Below are positions 39,392 through 47,127 of a stretch of 64,000 bases of DNA, one piece after another. A program made the position numbers and the translations under genes. The notes beneath the pieces were generated by a model that was not told the DNA's origin, did not search any database, and saw only the letters and a program-made list of their open reading frames with translations. How positions within the stretch are numbered: position 1 is the first letter of the stretch; every line of letters starts with the position of its first letter. Where the stretch lies: assembly GCA_023150915.1 (NCBI GenBank), contig JAKLKA010000035.1, positions 1 to 64,000 of the forward strand, read 5' to 3'. Source of the stretch: Polyangiaceae bacterium. Its GTDB lineage: Bacteria > Myxococcota_A > Polyangia > Polyangiales > Polyangiaceae.

Positions 39392-39435
39392 CAAAACACC
39401 ACCGGCGCGCGTTCCCGCCGGGGAACACGCGCCGG
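39392..39435 (-). terminator. Intrinsic terminator of the cysteine-rich gene
   Basis: A 15-base stem (39402-39416 with 39421-39435, loop GCCG) is complete in the minus-strand RNA with one G-U wobble at 39410/39427; in plus-strand RNA that pair would be a C-A mismatch. On the minus strand it is followed by GGTGGTGTTTTG. This matches a terminator for the gene that stops at 39453. Confidence 0.75.
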
Positions 39436-39452: not shown

Positions 39453-40682
39453 TTACTTGGTCGAGACCGAGCCGGCGATGCTCGCCGTGACGGTCACCGA
39501 CTCGCTGACGTCCTCGGCGGCGTCGCCGGCGGCGGCGATGATCGCCGGGATGCACGCGGCCTTGATGTCGGTCACGGCGTCCACGTTGCCCGAGAGCTGC
39601 GCCGCGATCTTGCCCATGCCCTCGAGGCGCGCCTTGAAGGCGTAGACCACGCCCAGGTTGGCCTTCAGGGTCCCTTGGAGCTTGCCTGCCGCCTGAACGT
39701 CGGCCGCGCCGGCGAACACCACCGAGACCTCGGGCGGACGGCACTCGGCCTTGGCCTGCACGCTGGCGTCGCAGTTGGCGTCGCACTTGGCCTCGACCTG
39801 GCAGCCGCCCTTCAGCTCGCCGCCGGTGCACTTGATGGGCTCGTAGTCGCCCTTGCACTCGCCGTCGCACTTGACCGACGCCGTGGCCGAGCCCTTGCAG
39901 CTGGCGCTGCAGCTGCCCTTGCAGCTACCGGTGCAGGTTGCCTTCGGCGCGGTGGCCGAGCAGGTGCCCTTGCAGGTGCCCTTGCAGGCGCCATTGGCTT
40001 GCGGACCCGTGCCGCCCGCCGACGCTTCGCAGGTGCCTTCGCACTTGCCGTCGCACTCCACGCCGCCTTCGGCGGTGCAGGCGCCGGTGCACTCGCCGGT
40101 GCACTCGCCCTCGCAGCTGAGCGAAGCGCTGCCCTTGGCCGTGCACTCGCCCTTGCAGGAAAGCTCGAGCTTGCCGCCATCGCAGGTGGGCGGGGTGGCC
40201 TTGAGGTCGCACTTGCCGTCTGCCGAGCACTTGGCCTGGCAGTTGGCCTTGGCGCTGAGCGACGCTTCGCAGACCGGCGGCTTGACCGTCACGGTCAGCG
40301 TGCCCGAGGCCTGCGCCTTGAACTTGCCGATGGCGGTGGTGGCGGCGGTGCACCAGGCCTTCATCTTGGCGCGCTTGTCGTCGTTCTTCTCGGCGGCCTC
40401 TTGGGTGGCCTTGTCCACGTCCAGATCCACCGCGATGGACCGGCAGGCGCCGGTCAAGTCGGTGACCGCGGCCGACGCGATGCCGGCGAAGTCGGCCACG
40501 GCCTGGGCCGCGACCTGGGCGCTGGCGCTGCCCCCGATGTCCCCGGTGATGCTGGCGCCCACCTGGAACTCGGTGCAGCACACGCTGTCCTGCGCCTCTT
40601 TCACCTTGTCGCACGCGCTCATGGTGCTGAGCAGGCCTCCGCCGAGCAGAAGGGCGGCGCCAAAAACGGTGGATTTTCTCAT
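39453..40682 (-). CDS. Cysteine-repeat lipoprotein (CxGxC arrays)
   Basis: The 409-residue product has a type II signal peptide (TMSA before Cys24). Residues 25-130 are helical. The middle third, about 130-290, is a low-complexity array where cysteines recur every four residues (CKGECTAKG, CEGECTGECTGAC, CKGTCKGTC, CTGSCKGSCSASC). The last 90 residues are again helical and apolar. Closely spaced cysteines of this kind suggest metal binding or a disulfide-cross-linked surface layer; I know no family. The ATG at 40682 with GGAGAG upstream is preferred to a TTG two codons earlier. A strong terminator follows. Confidence 0.75.
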   Translation of the reverse strand: MRKSTVFGAALLLGGGLLSTMSACDKVKEAQDSVCCTEFQVGASITGDIGGSASAQVAAQAVADFAGIASAAVTDLTGACRSIAVDLDVDKATQEAAEKNDDKRAKMKAWCTAATTAIGKFKAQASGTLTVTVKPPVCEASLSAKANCQAKCSADGKCDLKATPPTCDGGKLELSCKGECTAKGSASLSCEGECTGECTGACTAEGGVECDGKCEGTCEASAGGTGPQANGACKGTCKGTCSATAPKATCTGSCKGSCSASCKGSATASVKCDGECKGDYEPIKCTGGELKGGCQVEAKCDANCDASVQAKAECRPPEVSVVFAGAADVQAAGKLQGTLKANLGVVYAFKARLEGMGKIAAQLSGNVDAVTDIKAACIPAIIAAAGDAAEDVSESVTVTASIAGSVSTK

Positions 40683-40847: not shown

Positions 40848-42416
40848 TCACTCTGGCCAGCAGCCGGGCTTGGTGTAAGGCGCCTTCTTGCCCTCGAAGC
40901 TGTCGCCCCCGACGCACTTCTTGTAGAGCGGGCTGGTGGCGGCCTTCGGGCCCCCGTAGCAGTTGAGCACGATGCCGCTGGGCGACTTCGGGCAGCCGCC
41001 GTTCACGCACAGCAGGTCTTGCGTGAGCGGCAGGCCGGTGCAGTCGCAGCTGGGCGTGAGGTCGATGCAATAGCGCTCGCCGCTGTAGTCCGAGCCGCCG
41101 CACAGGCCGGTGGGGCAGTCCGCGTCGTCCACGCAGGGCTCGCAGCTCTTGCCGGTGCCCTTGCAGGCGCCGAAGCGGTGCGCGCAGGTGGGCTTGCCCA
41201 GGGCGGTGTCGTGCACCGCGCACTCGGCGGCGCTGCCCCACACGCAGGCGTTCGACTGGTTCGGCTCGCACAGCACGGTGCAGTATTTGTGGCCCTTGCC
41301 GTCGCTGGCGCACACCTGGTTCGGCTTGGCGCGGCAGTCGTCGTCGGTCTTGCACTCGCTGCAGAACTCACGCTTGATGCACATGTTGCGCAGAAGGCCG
41401 AGGGGGCCGCACGAATAGGCCTTGCCCGCGCCGATCTCGCCTGCCGGGATGCAGCCGGTGATGTTAGAACCGGTCAGGCCGCACATGTCGGTGCAGGGCT
41501 TCTTGCCGGTGCGCAGGGTCTGGCACTCGTAGCCGGCGGCGCAGTCGCTGTCGGCCAGGCACGAGGTCTTGGTGCAGTAAGCGTCGTAGTCGCCGGGGCC
41601 GACGCCCACGCAGGCGAAGCCCGCCGCCTCGTCGCACTCCTTCGCGGCGGCGCCGCCCGGGCAGGCGGTGCCGAACTGCCCCTTCGGGTAGACGGTGCCC
41701 TTGGCGCAGGCCAGCACGTCTTGCCCCTCGGCGTTCTTCGCCGGCTTGCACTCGCCGACGGTGGCGCAGTCGCCGTTGGTCTTGCAGCCGACGTACGCGC
41801 AGGCCCCAGACACGCAGCCCAGGTTCTGATCGGCGTCGCACTCGGTGGACTTCTGGCAGGCTTCACCCAGCCCCAGGATTTTCACGCCCTTCTCGCAGTA
41901 CGTGCTGCCAGGCGCCTTCGGATCCGGGAGGCAAGCCGCGTCGACGCCGGCGCAGTCGGAGTTGGTCTTGCAGCCGGTCAGCTTGCACACGCCGGCCAGG
42001 CACTTGAAACCGCGCATCCCGTCGCACTGGTCGTCGGCGGCGCACTCGGTGTCGTATTGGCCGGTGACCTGGCCGTGCTTCGAGAACGGTGCCCACGCGC
42101 AGAACTGGCCGGGGGTGCCGTCGTCGGCGGGGCCGCCGTAGCAGTACTTCCCGGCGGGGCAGTCGTTGGTGGGGTGAGCGCAGGGCTGGCCGCAGGCGTT
42201 ACCCGCGCACTTCATCCCGGCAGTGCACTCGGCGTCGACGCACTTCTTCTCGCACAGGCCGTCGATGACCACGCCTTCGCAGGCCTTGACCTCTTCGTCG
42301 CCGCTGCACGCCGTGAGCCCCAGGGCCGTCAGCGCGAACACCCCCAGCACCGCTCCCAGCGTGCGCTTCGCCACGCGACGCAGCCCGCTATCCGCTCCCA
42401 GTCTGGACCCGATCAT
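40848..42416 (-). CDS. Large cysteine-rich lipoprotein with DC repeats
   Basis: The 522-residue protein has a long N-terminal arm and a lipobox GLTA before Cys37. The rest is a chain of about a dozen disulfide-type modules with the recurring pattern C-x-x-D-x-D-C (CKTNSDCAGVDAAC, CLADSDCAAGYEC, CKTDDDCRAKPNQVC, CVDDADCPTGLC). This type is abundant in Polyangia and is thought to be surface-exposed; the role is unknown. The ATG at 42416 is chosen because the arginine-rich stretch and hydrophobic core follow directly. It is divergent from the thioredoxin-like gene at 42584. Confidence 0.8.
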   Translation of the reverse strand: MIGSRLGADSGLRRVAKRTLGAVLGVFALTALGLTACSGDEEVKACEGVVIDGLCEKKCVDAECTAGMKCAGNACGQPCAHPTNDCPAGKYCYGGPADDGTPGQFCAWAPFSKHGQVTGQYDTECAADDQCDGMRGFKCLAGVCKLTGCKTNSDCAGVDAACLPDPKAPGSTYCEKGVKILGLGEACQKSTECDADQNLGCVSGACAYVGCKTNGDCATVGECKPAKNAEGQDVLACAKGTVYPKGQFGTACPGGAAAKECDEAAGFACVGVGPGDYDAYCTKTSCLADSDCAAGYECQTLRTGKKPCTDMCGLTGSNITGCIPAGEIGAGKAYSCGPLGLLRNMCIKREFCSECKTDDDCRAKPNQVCASDGKGHKYCTVLCEPNQSNACVWGSAAECAVHDTALGKPTCAHRFGACKGTGKSCEPCVDDADCPTGLCGGSDYSGERYCIDLTPSCDCTGLPLTQDLLCVNGGCPKSPSGIVLNCYGGPKAATSPLYKKCVGGDSFEGKKAPYTKPGCWPE

Positions 42417-42520
42417 GCTGACCTTCCGATTTGCCCCGACCTTCTGGTCGGAATTCCAAGGATGCCCGAGGGGCTCGCCCATAGCGCGGCGCGGCGGGCG
42501 AGGAAAGCCTGCCGCGCTGC

Positions 42521-42548
42521 TTGACGGGATCACCGGCCCCGCTATGCT
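42521..42548 (+). promoter_or_regulatory. Sigma-70-like promoter of the thioredoxin-like lipoprotein pair
   Basis: TTGACG at 42521-42526 (five of six) and TATGCT at 42543-42548 (four of six) are 16 bases apart. Initiation near 42555 gives a leader of about 29 bases with a GGGAGG ribosome site before the ATG at 42584. Confidence 0.6.
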
Positions 42549-42583: not shown

Positions 42584-43297
42584 ATGAAGACGGTGCTCAC
42601 CAGCGTCGGCGTTCTCGCCCTCACCAGTTTGACGGCCTGTGGTTCCGAGGCCGGCGATCCGCCTGCCCAGCAAGACTTCGACCACGGCACGGTGGTGAAC
42701 ACCGGCACCGGCGGGGGTGGCAACGTCACCGAGCCGCCGTTCTTGCAGTACGCCTATCCCACCGCGCCCTTCGGCTCGCAGATCGACTCGGTGATCGCGC
42801 CGCTGACCTTGCTGGGTTGGAAGGCGCCCATCGACGCGCAGTTCGACACCGCGGCGCTCGAGCCGGTCACCATCGCCGACTTCTACAACCCCGACGGCAA
42901 GAAGCCCTGGAAGCTGATCTGGGTGAACTCGTCGGCCGTGTGGTGTGGCCCGTGCAACAAGGAATACGCCGAGATGCGTGACAGCGACACCTTCAAGCAG
43001 GTGCTCGAGCCCAAGGGCGTCGCGGTCATCGGCACGCTGATGGAGAACATCAGCGCCGGCCCTGCCGCGCCCAGCGATCTGAAGAACTGGGGCGACAAGT
43101 ACAAGGTGCCGTTCCCGCTGGCGCTCGATCCGGCATTCAAGATGGGGCAGTACTTCGAGCAGGCCACGGTGCCGGGCGCGATCTTGGTGGACGCCAAGAC
43201 CATGAAGATCGTCGCCAAGCTTTCGGGTGGCGCCGTTGCCGGTCCAGGGGGCGTGCTCGAAGAGATCGACGCCGCGCTGGCCAACCTTCCCCAATGA
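42584..43297 (+). CDS. Thioredoxin-like lipoprotein, WCGPC type
   Basis: The 237-residue lipoprotein (SLTA before Cys19) has a Gly-rich linker, about 50 residues of unknown type and a thioredoxin fold with WCGPC at about 120-124 and the cis-proline segment ATVPGAILVD. It should act in the periplasm as a disulfide reductase or oxidase. The segment IADFYNPDGKK before the active site recurs as ALSDFYDPDGEK in the lipoprotein at 47132-47812, so the two are paralogues. The stop overlaps the start of the next gene (ATGA). Confidence 0.88.
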   Translation: MKTVLTSVGVLALTSLTACGSEAGDPPAQQDFDHGTVVNTGTGGGGNVTEPPFLQYAYPTAPFGSQIDSVIAPLTLLGWKAPIDAQFDTAALEPVTIADFYNPDGKKPWKLIWVNSSAVWCGPCNKEYAEMRDSDTFKQVLEPKGVAVIGTLMENISAGPAAPSDLKNWGDKYKVPFPLALDPAFKMGQYFEQATVPGAILVDAKTMKIVAKLSGGAVAGPGGVLEEIDAALANLPQ

Positions 43298-43833
43298 AGT
43301 GCGCCGGCATCGTGCTCGGCGCCGCGGTGGCGCTGGCCGCGCTGGGTTGCAGCGGCGGTGGCAGCACGGGTCCCGGTGCCACGGGCGCCGAGGGCAGCGG
43401 CGCGCGGCCGCCTGATTTCGAGCTCTCGACCATCGACGGCAAGACGGTGCGGCTGTCGGATCATCTGGGCAAAGACGTCATCTTGATCGACTTCTGGGCG
43501 ACGTTCTGCGACCCGTGCATGGCCTCGATGCCGCACCTGGACGAGCTCTACAAGAAGCACAAAGACAAGGGCTTCGTGGTGCTTGGCGTCAGCATCGACG
43601 GGCCCGACTCGGTGGCGCAGGTGAAGAGCACGGTCTCCAAGCTCGGCGTCTCGTTCCCGATCTTGCTCGACCAAGAGACCAGCGTGGTCGCCCTCTACAA
43701 CCCCAAGACCAGCGCGCCGTTCAGCGTGCTGATCGGCCGGGACGGCAGCATCATCGCCAAGAAAGAGGGCTACACCACCGGCGACGGCACCGCCGTCGAC
43801 CGCGACGTGGAAGCCGCGCTGGCGAAGAAGTAG
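43294..43833 (+). CDS. TlpA-like thioredoxin lipoprotein, CDPC type
   Basis: The 179-residue lipoprotein (AALG before Cys19) is a TlpA/ResA-type thioredoxin: PPDFELSTIDGKTVRLSDHLGKDVILIDFWATFCDPCMASMP with cysteines at about 72 and 75 and the later LGVSIDGPDSVAQV. The active site is CDPC rather than CEPC or CGPC, which shifts redox potential in other family members. TlpA-like proteins reduce cytochrome c or copper-binding apoproteins. It is translationally coupled to the preceding thioredoxin-like gene. Confidence 0.93.
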   Translation: MKCAGIVLGAAVALAALGCSGGGSTGPGATGAEGSGARPPDFELSTIDGKTVRLSDHLGKDVILIDFWATFCDPCMASMPHLDELYKKHKDKGFVVLGVSIDGPDSVAQVKSTVSKLGVSFPILLDQETSVVALYNPKTSAPFSVLIGRDGSIIAKKEGYTTGDGTAVDRDVEAALAKK

Positions 43834-43906: not shown

Positions 43907-45241
43907 TCAGCGCGGCGGGGCCGACACACGCAAGAAGCGCGAGGCGAGGAGCAGCGCCGCCACCGTCAGGCCCACGATCAGCCCGATCCACATGCCCTTC
44001 GGCCCGAGCCCCGCGCCAAGCGCGAGCCAGCCCCCGAGTGGGATACCGATCAGCCAATACGCGATCAACGCGAGCAGCATCGGCACCCGGGTGTCCTTCA
44101 GGCCGCGCAGCGCGCCGTTCGACAGCACCTGCGCGCCGTCGGGGAACTGGAACGCCGCGGCGTAGGCAATCAGGCTGGTGGCCAGGGCGCCGACCACCGC
44201 GTCGTTCGAGTACAGGCGGACCACGGCGCCGCGACCCAGCACCAGCGCGGTACCCGTGGCGGCCTGGGTGCCGAGCATCAGCACGAAGCCCGCGAAGGCC
44301 GCGCGGCGAATGCCGGGGAGGTTGCCCGAGCCGACGGCATGGCCCACCCGCACCGTGGTGGCTTCTGCCAGGCCCAGCGGGATCATGAAGCACAAGCTGG
44401 CGACGTTGATGGCGATCTGATGGGCTGCGGCGGGGATTTCGCCCAGTCGGCCGATGAGCAGCGACGCGAAGATGAACAGGCTGCCCTCCATCAGCACGGT
44501 GAAGCCAATCGGCGCCCCCACCGCGAGCAGCGCACGGATCTCGCCCAGCCGGGGTGGGTCGAACCGACCGAAGAGCGCGAGATCGCGGAAGCGACGCGCA
44601 CGCGCCAGGTAGAGCCCGAGGGCGATGGCCTGCAGCCACATCACCGTTGCCGAAGCGAGTCCCAGCCCCTTCGCGCCCAGCTCGGGCAGCCCGAAGGCGC
44701 CGAAGGTGAGGGCGTACCCCAGCGGCACCAACAGACACAGGCCGGCGAACGCCAGCAACATCGACGGCACCGTGAAGTGCAGGCCGTCGGCCAGGTAGCG
44801 CAGGCACAGGAACACGGCGAAGGCCGGCAGGCCCCAGCGGACGCCGTGCAAGAAGCCGGTGGTCCCCGGCGCGATCTCGGGCGCGATGCCGATGGGCCCG
44901 AGGGCGTGCGGCACGAAGGTCATGTACGCGAACAAGAGCGGGCCGAGGGCCAGCGACACCCACAGCGCCTGGCGCAAGAGCGGGCCGATCTCGTTCCGCC
45001 GGCCGGCACCAGAGAGTTGCGAGACCGCCGGCGGCACGCTCATCAGCGTGCCCAGCACCACCGTCAGCGGCAGCCACATCAGCGCGGTGCCGATGGTGAC
45101 CGAGGCCAGGGTGCGCGTACCGTGGTGCCCCGCGATCACGTTGTCGACGAAGCCGACCAGGCCCGTGGACAGGTGACCGACCACCAGCGGGCCGGCGAGC
45201 GTGGCGGTGGTGCGTAGCTCCGAGCGGAACGAAGCCGTCAA
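43907..45241 (-). CDS. MATE-family multidrug/metabolite efflux transporter
   Basis: The 444-residue inner-membrane protein has about 12 hydrophobic helices in two halves. MATE-style segments include GHLSTGLVGFVDNVIAG in helix 1, PPAVSQLSGAGR, and in the second half AAHQIAINVASLCFMIPLGLAEATTVRVGH, which is highly typical. It exports organic cations or metabolites in exchange for sodium or protons. The start is TTG overlapping the stop of the outer-membrane gene (TTGA); a later start would cut helix 1. It is the last gene of a four-gene operon. Confidence 0.93.
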   Translation of the reverse strand: MTASFRSELRTTATLAGPLVVGHLSTGLVGFVDNVIAGHHGTRTLASVTIGTALMWLPLTVVLGTLMSVPPAVSQLSGAGRRNEIGPLLRQALWVSLALGPLLFAYMTFVPHALGPIGIAPEIAPGTTGFLHGVRWGLPAFAVFLCLRYLADGLHFTVPSMLLAFAGLCLLVPLGYALTFGAFGLPELGAKGLGLASATVMWLQAIALGLYLARARRFRDLALFGRFDPPRLGEIRALLAVGAPIGFTVLMEGSLFIFASLLIGRLGEIPAAAHQIAINVASLCFMIPLGLAEATTVRVGHAVGSGNLPGIRRAAFAGFVLMLGTQAATGTALVLGRGAVVRLYSNDAVVGALATSLIAYAAAFQFPDGAQVLSNGALRGLKDTRVPMLLALIAYWLIGIPLGGWLALGAGLGPKGMWIGLIVGLTVAALLLASRFLRVSAPPR

Positions 45242-47127
45242 AACCTCACGGTCGCGTCGAGCCGCGCGCCCTCGAACGCCGGGTACTTCCGACACACGCC
45301 GCCCACGCAGCGCAGCGACCCGCGGCGCTGACCGACGAAGGCGCTGACGCTGGACGACGACGTGATCTTGTAGCTGACCTGGCCGTTGAAATACGTGTCG
45401 GGCACGCCGGGATCGGTGCTGTATTCCGCGCCGAAGGCCGCCGAGAGGTGCGGCGCCCAGTCGACGCCGGTCAGGTGCTGGCCCTCGAACCACGGCGCCT
45501 CGGGCCCGCCCGCCACCTGGTGGCGGCGACGGTGCCACCCCTGAAGCTGGAGCGAGAAGGGGCCGCCCAGGTGGCGGATCACGTCGTAGCGCGCGTAGCT
45601 CTCTTGATAATAGAGGTGGGTCTGGGCGCCGCTGGCGATCGAGATCTCTTCTTCGGCCTGGTCGATGCGGGCGCCGACCGTGAGGTTCGCGCGGCTCTTG
45701 CGCTTCTGGCTGGTGATTTCCATGCCGGTGGCCAGATCCCACACCCGGTTCAGGTTGGCGTTCGAGGTCTCGCAGCTCTCGTTCAGCGAACGCTCGGCCC
45801 AGGTTCGATAGTGACCGACCCAGGCGAACACGCTCTCGTCTTTGCCCAGGTGCACGTCGCCCTTCAGCCGCCCGCCAGTGACGCAGGTGTTGAAGCCCTC
45901 GAACTCGGTGTCGACCCAGAAGGCCTCGGTGGTGGGCGGGGCGCTGTACTGCACCAGCGCGAACTCGGGCGCGCGCGCGGTGTTCACGTTGGCGCTGAGC
46001 GCGAAGAACCGGCGATAGTGCTTGCCCTCGAAGGTGAGGGTGAGCGGATCTTGGATCAAGGTCAGGGCGCCGTACACCGCGTAGCCCCGCTTACCGCCGA
46101 GCAGCTCGCGGTCCGAGCTCGAGCCGTCACGATCGGCGTCGTCCAGGCTCTGCAGCGCGACCTCGACATAGCCGTCGCCGTGCCCGCCGAAGTCGGCGAC
46201 CTCGATCGACTGACTGCCGGTCAAGACCGTGTCGGCCTGGCGAACCACGTCGACGTTGAGGGGATCTTGCCGGCGCAGGAACGACGCCTGCGTCCCGAGC
46301 TTGAACCCCTTGGGCGCGATCTCGATCTGCGCCGCGCCCAGCCGATCGGGGGCGTAGGTCGGGGTGCGGGGTACGAAGTCGGTCTCGACGGCGCGCGGCA
46401 TGCCAGCCTCGGTGGCGGCCAGCCAGCTGGGGGTGACCGTAGAGTCCACTCCCAGGTAGCGGCCGCTGGCCTCGTCGATGCGCAGCGGGTTCATCTCGCC
46501 GCCCAGGGCCGTGAGCCGCAGCTTGACCGGCCCGGCGTTCACGCGCCCGGTGATCCGCGCGCCGCGCACCGTGGTGTCGCTCGCCAGCTCGTCCATCTTG
46601 CGCACGCTGAGCACGAACCCGCGGCCGAGGGCCGCGTAGAAGTCGCCGGCGGTCAGCTCGACGTCGCGCGTGGTGTAGCCCACGTAGTATTTCGACGGAT
46701 AGACCCAGTTGATGTAGCGGTTCGACAGCTCGGCGCCGGCCTCGTCGAACTTCTGGCGGAAGAGCTGCGCGTCGGAGATGCCGCCGCCGGCCGGGCGCGT
46801 CTCGACCACGTCGAGCGCGATGGCCTCGGGGTAGGGGGAGCGATAAAACCAGGCGTTGTCGACGCGAACGCCGAGGGTGAGCTTGCCCCACGACGCCTGC
46901 AGGTTGAGCCGGTTGTACCACATGCCCCACTCGTCGTTGGCGCGGGTGGGCACCTCGAGCGGGCGCGTGTCGCGGTTGTCGAAGTTGTAGAGCACGCTCG
47001 AGGCGTTGGTCACGTCCACGTGCACCGCGTCGCTGCCCAGCTTGCCCGGCTCGAGCGCGCGAGCCGGCGCGGCCAGCGTGAGCCCCAGCGCTGCCGCCCG
47101 CGCAGCCCTTCCGACCCTCACCCGCAT
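45238..47127 (-). CDS. Outer-membrane beta-barrel protein, DUF6029-like
   Basis: The 629-residue protein has a signal peptide ending near ARA|LEP and then many short amphipathic strands with aromatic girdles (YNRLNLQASWGKLTLGVRVDNAW, YYVGYTTRDVELTAGDFYAALGRGFVLSV), ending in ARLDATVRF with the C-terminal Phe needed for barrel insertion. It resembles the DUF6029 family of unknown function. Two cysteine pairs occur in loops (NTCVTG, RCVGGVC). It is four bases after the thioredoxin-like gene and overlaps the MATE start, so a shared role is likely. Confidence 0.8.
   Translation of the reverse strand: MRVRVGRAARAAALGLTLAAPARALEPGKLGSDAVHVDVTNASSVLYNFDNRDTRPLEVPTRANDEWGMWYNRLNLQASWGKLTLGVRVDNAWFYRSPYPEAIALDVVETRPAGGGISDAQLFRQKFDEAGAELSNRYINWVYPSKYYVGYTTRDVELTAGDFYAALGRGFVLSVRKMDELASDTTVRGARITGRVNAGPVKLRLTALGGEMNPLRIDEASGRYLGVDSTVTPSWLAATEAGMPRAVETDFVPRTPTYAPDRLGAAQIEIAPKGFKLGTQASFLRRQDPLNVDVVRQADTVLTGSQSIEVADFGGHGDGYVEVALQSLDDADRDGSSSDRELLGGKRGYAVYGALTLIQDPLTLTFEGKHYRRFFALSANVNTARAPEFALVQYSAPPTTEAFWVDTEFEGFNTCVTGGRLKGDVHLGKDESVFAWVGHYRTWAERSLNESCETSNANLNRVWDLATGMEITSQKRKSRANLTVGARIDQAEEEISIASGAQTHLYYQESYARYDVIRHLGGPFSLQLQGWHRRRHQVAGGPEAPWFEGQHLTGVDWAPHLSAAFGAEYSTDPGVPDTYFNGQVSYKITSSSSVSAFVGQRRGSLRCVGGVCRKYPAFEGARLDATVRF

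Follow-up and report, generated by a model that had tools for sequence, protein, structure and literature searches.

Mirror-symmetric cysteine spacing in a predicted myxobacterial lipoprotein points to a nested disulfide ladder

The window analysed here is the whole 64,000-nucleotide stretch at the start of contig JAKLKA010000035.1 from a Polyangiaceae bacterium, and its reverse strand carries at 39453..40682 (ATG at 40682) a gene for a protein of 409 aa with 34 Cys. What kind of molecule is built with so many regularly placed cysteines? The initial annotation described a lipoprotein with a cysteine at every fourth residue, and likened it, by pattern only, to a metallothionein or a cross-linked coat design. 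The arrays it quoted (CEGECTGECTGAC, CKGTCKGTC and CTGSCKGSC) are all present in the window protein, and the regular step is far from chance. A Cys-Cys spacing of four occurs 14 times, compared with a mean of 2.9 and a maximum of 9 in 5000 shuffles of the mature protein, and with a mean of 4.2 and a maximum of 11 in stricter shuffles of residues 138-314 alone. The CxGxC unit occurs 11 times, against shuffle maxima of 3 (mature protein) and 5 (residues 138-314). The array proves to be palindromic in its spacing, centred on residue 226, rather than a simple repeat, and this palindrome had been missed.

The predicted lipoprotein and its family

A signal peptide (residues 1-23) and a predicted lipidated Cys24 (LSTMSAC) were recognised by pattern at 40611..40682, on the reverse strand like all other parts of the gene. 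The lipoprotein call for the window protein is based on this lipobox pattern, and the evidence on it is divided. The lipobox column is a Cys in all 29 homologues with an N-terminus, and the close homologues have LSVSGC or LPLSGC; position -3 of a lipobox is usually L, V or I, from which the Met of LSTMSAC departs. Outside the array the protein contains C24, C35, C36, C80, C111 and C377. The N-terminal helices cover residues 53-125 (40308..40526, including C80 and C111; AlphaFold2, block pLDDT 81-95), and the C-terminal helices lie within residues 329-406 (39465..39698, including C377; AlphaFold2). The ends are thus helical and poor in cysteine, as had been proposed, though not free of it. One Cys of C35-C36 is an extra residue, which is present in 29 of 120 homologues; which of the two is the extra one depends on the alignment, since either aligns with the conserved column. 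The gene's own terminator could also be found as a pattern, an intrinsic-terminator-like hairpin at 39402..39435 on the reverse strand with a 15-pair stem (12 G-C) and the tail TGGTGTTTTG.

The ladder family, as the homologues are called here, has matches in 225 of the 289 genomes sampled from the same class. Among the relatives, the window genome included, 56 of 59 genomes hold matches and 41 of 59 have 2-5 each, where one ladder gene can yield two matches. In a sample of the phylum, 89 of 377 genomes matched a 30-row profile, 83 from the same class and six from outside it with marginal E-values. The six were not counted, as their matches are partial, covering 24-111 of the 419 profile positions with E-values of 8e-6 or weaker. 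Two genera were without the family among the genomes listed, g13 of family f1 (3 genomes) and g39 of family f5 (12 genomes). Other phyla were covered by a single pattern scan for close relatives, which returned 12 loci, all myxobacterial, and more distant members may exist there; the named relatives are 12 MAG loci called Polyangiaceae, Labilithrix, Polyangia or Myxococcales bacterium. No family match was found on plasmids. Ladder genes also occur in tandem: four in L071 (G011:C330, ~36.4-43.1 kb), four in L046 (a Labilithrix MAG), three in L123 and two in several other loci.

The alignment includes 120 of the 122 distinct family sequences, the two under 330 aa being omitted; the fused ORF L049 was trimmed to its last 400 residues before alignment. 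In this Labilithrix MAG (L049:3650-6019) the ladder domain stands behind a long extra N-terminal region in a 789-aa ORF. Cysteine is the most conserved residue type, with 96% identity to the window compared with 17-58% for the other types, and the poor conservation of cysteines that would have told against the initial annotation was not seen.

A known family of defined role was also looked for, and none was found for the window protein. No family in Pfam, NCBIfam or PHROGs exceeded its cut-off, and PDB sequence searches gave no credible solved relative (only weak matches, the lowest E being 0.096 for the protein query and 0.11 for the profile query). The Bactofilin profile (PF04519) matched 11 of 30 members at E <= 0.01 (best E 1.7e-5). 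The window protein scored 16.6 bits, and the homologues 15.7-23.9 where bits were given, against a gathering cut-off of 27.9; the matches shifted among members (142-238, 150-244, 185-255, 197-282, 229-316 and 318-393). Bactofilin was rejected because the scores seen were below threshold and the matches fell on different parts of the members. This weak likeness probably comes from alternating small residues, and a solenoid would not give the mirrored pairs of the ladder.

Mirror symmetry and covariation of the array

The array of the window protein includes 28 Cys, from C138 to C314. The left arm (residues 138-218, 40029..40271) and the right arm (residues 233-314, 39741..39986) have 14 Cys each, and between them is a tip loop (residues 219-232, EASAGGTGPQANGA, 39987..40028). 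The arms were delimited by spacing and covariation, and the spacing of the right arm mirrors that of the left. The successive gaps are 10 4 6 9 9 4 10 4 4 4 8 4 4 (15) 4 4 9 4 4 4 10 4 9 9 6 4 10. Of the mirrored Cys pairs, eleven have i+j = 452, and the three nearest the tip have i+j = 451. Twelve of the 13 mirrored gaps are equal, which was reached by 0 of 200000 same-gap shuffles.

The mirror is a property of the whole family. Exact equality holds for 1475 of the 1527 mirrored gaps in the 120 homologues, and 1508 agree to within one residue, whereas 2000 shuffles gave a mean of 527 equal gaps and a maximum of 576. Pairs of gaps not both of length 4 are also equal in 595 of 647 cases. The Cys count is even in 118 of 120 arrays and odd in two, and the homologues have 10-17 putative rungs. 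There are 48 distinct arm patterns, and only 26 of them are perfect palindromes. The lengths of the left and right arms are closely correlated (r 0.989), being equal in 84 of 118 arrays and differing by at most one residue in 112. The ladder loci contain 47 other Cys-rich ORF entries, several of them copies or fragments of one gene, which served as a control; their exact mirror runs are at most 2, versus a median of 12 for the 111 ladder-like entries. The Cys-rich neighbour of the window gene, which the initial annotation had set apart from it, is indeed unlike it, with a longest exact mirror run of 2. Three ladder proteins (L127, L125) have tip gaps of 3-5-11, where an extra loop Cys pair breaks the mirror.

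The palindrome concerns the spacing. A residue-level palindrome was not found in the longer gaps, where mirrored residues are identical at 914 of 4963 positions, compared with 1106 of 4963 read forward. At the DNA level, no inverted repeat was detected in the array at a minimum length of 16; the only repeats are direct ones from the CxGxC codons. Across the mirrored 4-residue steps, opposite charges face each other 139 times (106 expected) and acid faces acid 53 times (80.5 expected); base faces base about as expected (37 versus 32.5).

The cysteines of the array are also gained and lost together. The presence and absence of Cys in the column pairs 148/304, 158/294, 176/276 and 194/258 are perfectly correlated (r = 1.0), and these pairs are nested. 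Two nested pairs absent from the window protein gave r = 1.0 (171/280) and r = 0.98 (184/268). The correlations count sequences, not events; one split of 18 sequences lies under both the loss of 148/304 and the gain of 171/280. Those 18 sequences are also without C111 and C80, and C80 is missing in one further sequence. Because they share several Cys changes, these columns correlate outside the nested pairs too, perfectly for 111/148 and 111/304, at 0.97 for C80 and at 0.84 for other pairs. The pair 202/254 (r = 0.89) is off register by four, which we take to be alignment slippage.

The gaps behave in the same manner. In the 25 sequences that share the arm type of the window protein, four gap positions vary. 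Indels in the mirrored gaps are coupled with r = 1.0 at three of them, of which one varies in a single sequence only, and with r = 0.88 at the fourth. Changes of the arms were also placed on a tree built from non-ladder columns only (118 of 120 sequences, the two odd arrays being omitted). There are 46 changes on the left and 42 on the right, and 36 share a branch, compared with 8.3 expected. An identical inferred change is carried by 12 of these 36 two-arm branches; lone changes number 10 in the left arm and 6 in the right. Mutual information between non-Cys columns points to the same register: with gaps excluded, 25 of the top 60 cross-arm pairs lie at i+j = 450-454 (3.5 expected) and 35 are off register, and with gaps as a state 31 of the top 60 pairs are in register (3.2 expected). 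The nested disulfide-ladder pairing is, on this reading of the sequences, well supported by evolution. As the array Cys covary in nested pairs and the mirrored gaps change together, the word 'cross-linked' appears to be the better half of the original guess.

The proposed ribbon and alternative readings

Spacing and covariation give the pairing strong support, and we infer that its chemistry is that of disulfides. A single-chain hairpin is likely. The protein is probably a lipid-anchored rod, in which a two-stranded ribbon would be held by 14 cross-strand disulfides above a helical base, with TlpA-like proteins as candidate helpers. C24 would carry the lipid and 28 Cys would form the ladder. 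The N- and C-terminal helices may bundle at the base, and the chain between them would form one long antiparallel beta ribbon of two strands, running out to the tip and returning. The putative rungs are C138-C314, C148-C304, C152-C300, C158-C294 and C167-C285 on the base side, C176-C276, C180-C272, C190-C262, C194-C258 and C198-C254 in the middle, and C202-C250, C210-C241, C214-C237 and C218-C233 on the tip side, where a Gly-rich turn (219-232) would follow. Antiparallel beta ribbons have alternate residues on opposite faces. Within the CxGxC stretches, one face of the ribbon would show Cys and Gly in turn, and polar residues would occupy the opposite face; where two Cys of a homologue array are four apart, the residue midway is Gly in 1465 of 1773 cases and Ala in 292. 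Outside the ladder, C80 might pair with C111, and C377 with one of C35 and C36, and the remaining Cys of C35-C36 may be free or joined to another molecule, an assignment that would explain the parity of the Cys count. The length of the rod would be set by the number of rungs (10-17), and might reach at most ~26 nm here if fully extended, taking 80 residues per arm at 0.33 nm.

The structure models are consistent with this arrangement at middling confidence (pLDDT 76.5 and pTM 0.63 for the full model, 68.7 and 0.46 for the ladder alone, from a 16-sequence input). The full AlphaFold2 model has strands in the ladder arms in addition to the terminal helices. Two of the five ladder-only models dropped to 41 and 37. 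The secondary structure of the ladder-only model is most symmetric exactly at the predicted centre, with 68 of 100 positions matching, while the 81 centres that were compared average 43%. For the full model the highest symmetry is one residue off the prediction, at 451 (62 of 98), and 452 comes next (61 of 98). Foldseek gave no match to the full model below E 0.54, and VIA-align 2 matched it unspecifically to helical proteins, bundles among them (Z <=7.9). The ladder alone gave nothing below E 2.1 in Foldseek and, among 44 chains, nothing with Z >=2 in VIA; an absent fold match to models of middling confidence does not prove a new fold.

The same i to 452-i pairs could also be formed between two molecules. 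In such an antiparallel homodimer, the array would be an extended strand of ~180 residues per chain (a domain swap). The spacing palindrome and the coevolution cannot tell the same chain from a partner chain, and the mirror pattern, blind to chain identity, fits the dimer equally well; the extra Cys of C35-C36 could even add an intermolecular link. The difference lies at the tip. Its composition is 25% Gly, and its gap varies from 5 to 18 across the family. Tip loops of 8 residues occur in 55 of 118 arrays, of which 51 have Gly at position 7 and 40 the pattern [DNEGS]xxG. A turn signature of this kind is unneeded in a straight strand, and the hairpin is favoured over the dimer, which we regard as unlikely. 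Slightly less probable is a redox device, in which the ladder would be a disulfide reservoir cycled by TlpA-like partners as a redox buffer for the envelope. In its favour, the ladder gene has two thioredoxin-fold genes and a gene for a second Cys-rich protein beside it. A reservoir needs no exact pairing or matched arms, yet these are kept over 48 arm patterns, and 81 of the 91 ladder loci of at least 5 kb are without a TlpA-like match, although many of these loci have only ~4 kb of flank.

The other half of the original guess was a metallothionein, with the array Cys holding Cu, Zn, Cd or similar. The 34 strongly conserved Cys in 409 residues could suggest it. Metallothioneins are defined by clustered CxC or CxxC motifs, and no such motif occurs in the window array (the CC at 35-36 lies outside it); gaps of 2 or 3 make up 6 of 3172 array gaps in the 120 homologues. 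The Cys pairs are spaced singly along the chain rather than in clusters, and on an extended ribbon they would stand ~13 A apart, too far for a shared tetrathiolate site. The predicted lipobox would place the protein outside the cytoplasm, and its neighbours have thioredoxin folds. The missing motifs and the predicted envelope location make the metal reading very improbable. The weakest of the alternatives, which we find scarcely credible, is a ribosomal peptide precursor of the CXXX-repeat kind, modified by a radical-SAM enzyme. The 18-residue repeat model TIGR04114 reached 20.1 bits in the homologue L019 (cut-off 20) and 14.6-17.2 bits in four more of 20 homologues scanned singly; among 30 ladder members, two matched at E <= 0.01 (L019 with 20.1 and L020 with 17.2 bits). 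The window protein has no TIGR04114 match, the maturase TIGR04115 is over its cut-off in 0 of 20 genomes, the window genome included, and radical-SAM matches are sub-threshold in 14 of 20. The predicted lipobox and a large folded protein also speak against such a precursor. TIGR04114 proteins likewise have Cys at every fourth residue, but this is a match at the level of pattern only; the ladder array is a palindrome, unlike theirs.

The zipped hairpin ribbon has partial parallels in known proteins. The theta-defensins consist of two antiparallel beta strands joined by three parallel disulfides (PMC10096437), and they resemble the proposed ladder in principle. They are cyclic primate peptides of 18 residues with 3 rungs, and no homology to them was seen; the ladder protein has 10-17 putative rungs in the family, a linear 409-aa ORF, a predicted lipid anchor and helical ends. 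The ultralong CDR of bovine antibodies has a stalk that is a two-stranded beta ribbon. This long stalk with a tip resembles the proposed rod, but its disulfides are reported to be in the knob and not along the stalk (PMC8602281). It is an antibody loop, and no homology to the ladder protein is claimed.

There is perhaps an even chance that the family represents an undescribed kind of protein, namely a lipid-anchored zipped ribbon of 10-17 rungs with arm indels matched like those of an RNA stem, and with thioredoxin-like lipoprotein folders encoded nearby. The architecture is called new because searches of families, folds and the open-access literature found none alike; in the open-access literature no paper on the ladder family or on a palindromic cysteine array was recognised. 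As its most likely role, we tentatively suggest that the protein serves the cell envelope or surface as a strut or spacer that is rigid and resists proteases. A real ladder would have several times the length of the 3-rung theta-defensin one, and would pose a folding problem in which 28 Cys have to find one exact nested order outside the cytoplasm. It would also be a striking protein example of compensatory indel evolution, visible by eye in the Cys spacing. With its natural range of 10-17 rungs, its tandem paralogues and its candidate folding helpers, the family opens rod length, disulfide order and helper function to testing. The ladder pairing may also help in the design of rigid, covalently zipped struts.

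Neighbouring genes and candidate folding helpers

Upstream of the ladder gene and in the same direction, a Cys-rich predicted lipoprotein with 61 Cys is encoded at 40848..42533 (reverse strand); by eye, its true start is inside the ORF, ahead of an LGLTAC lipobox. TIGR04201 (Myxo_Cys_RPT) describes Cys-rich myxobacterial envelope proteins. This family has no match in the ladder protein, and only a sub-threshold one in the neighbour (15.1 bits, cut-off 25). Beyond it are two genes for TlpA-like thioredoxin-fold proteins on the forward strand, divergent from the ladder gene. The first (42584..43297) has a WCGPC motif, a lipobox LTAC recognised by eye and an AhpC-TSA match of 31.1 bits (cut-off 26). 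The second (43294..43833) has FCDPC, a lipobox ALGC by eye and 83 bits for AhpC-TSA (cut-off 26), and is also over the cut-offs of Redoxin, Thioredoxin_8 and Thioredoxin. Downstream of the ladder gene, a gene for an Mrp-type ATPase was recognised by eye.

TlpA-like homologues adjoin ladder genes in 10 of the 91 loci of at least 5 kb, from 9 genomes. A Cys-rich gene is present in all 10 of these loci, and the divergent layout is the same except in L116. Going by the ladder matches listed, whose number is a lower bound, an FCDPC TlpA-like gene lies within 6 kb of a ladder gene in at least 12 of 33 genomes, where 0.13 would be expected assuming 8-Mb genomes; on the same listing the other 21 of the 33 strong FCDPC homologues are elsewhere. 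The nearby TlpA-like gene is thus a candidate folding helper for the ladder protein, and the TlpA-like pair probably oxidise or proofread its disulfides.

Another group of ladder paralogues is found among genes of the PGM/PMM (glmM-like), FtsX-like, GH3, transketolase and YceG-like types, and the gene order from the glmM-like to the YceG-like gene is kept in four genomes. A short paralogue with 10 putative rungs occurs in G000:C7 (L054), L058 and L064. In these three loci, a conserved gene of cluster c24, biotin-carboxylase-like by eye, is located a few kb away. Directly after the ladder gene, three loci encode a small Cys-rich protein with 17-19 Cys (L047:7223-7789, L060:9782-10273 and L067:7614-8042); these proteins are not palindromic, and the L047 copy has no Pfam match. 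The reverse strand of the window also encodes, at 45238-47127, a large protein that matches DUF6029 with 60.2 bits (cut-off 27), and its gene adjoins the ladder module in four loci of three genomes. Moreover, a serpin gene (329 bits) was found near a ladder gene at L043:1583-2881, with relatives in two more ladder loci.
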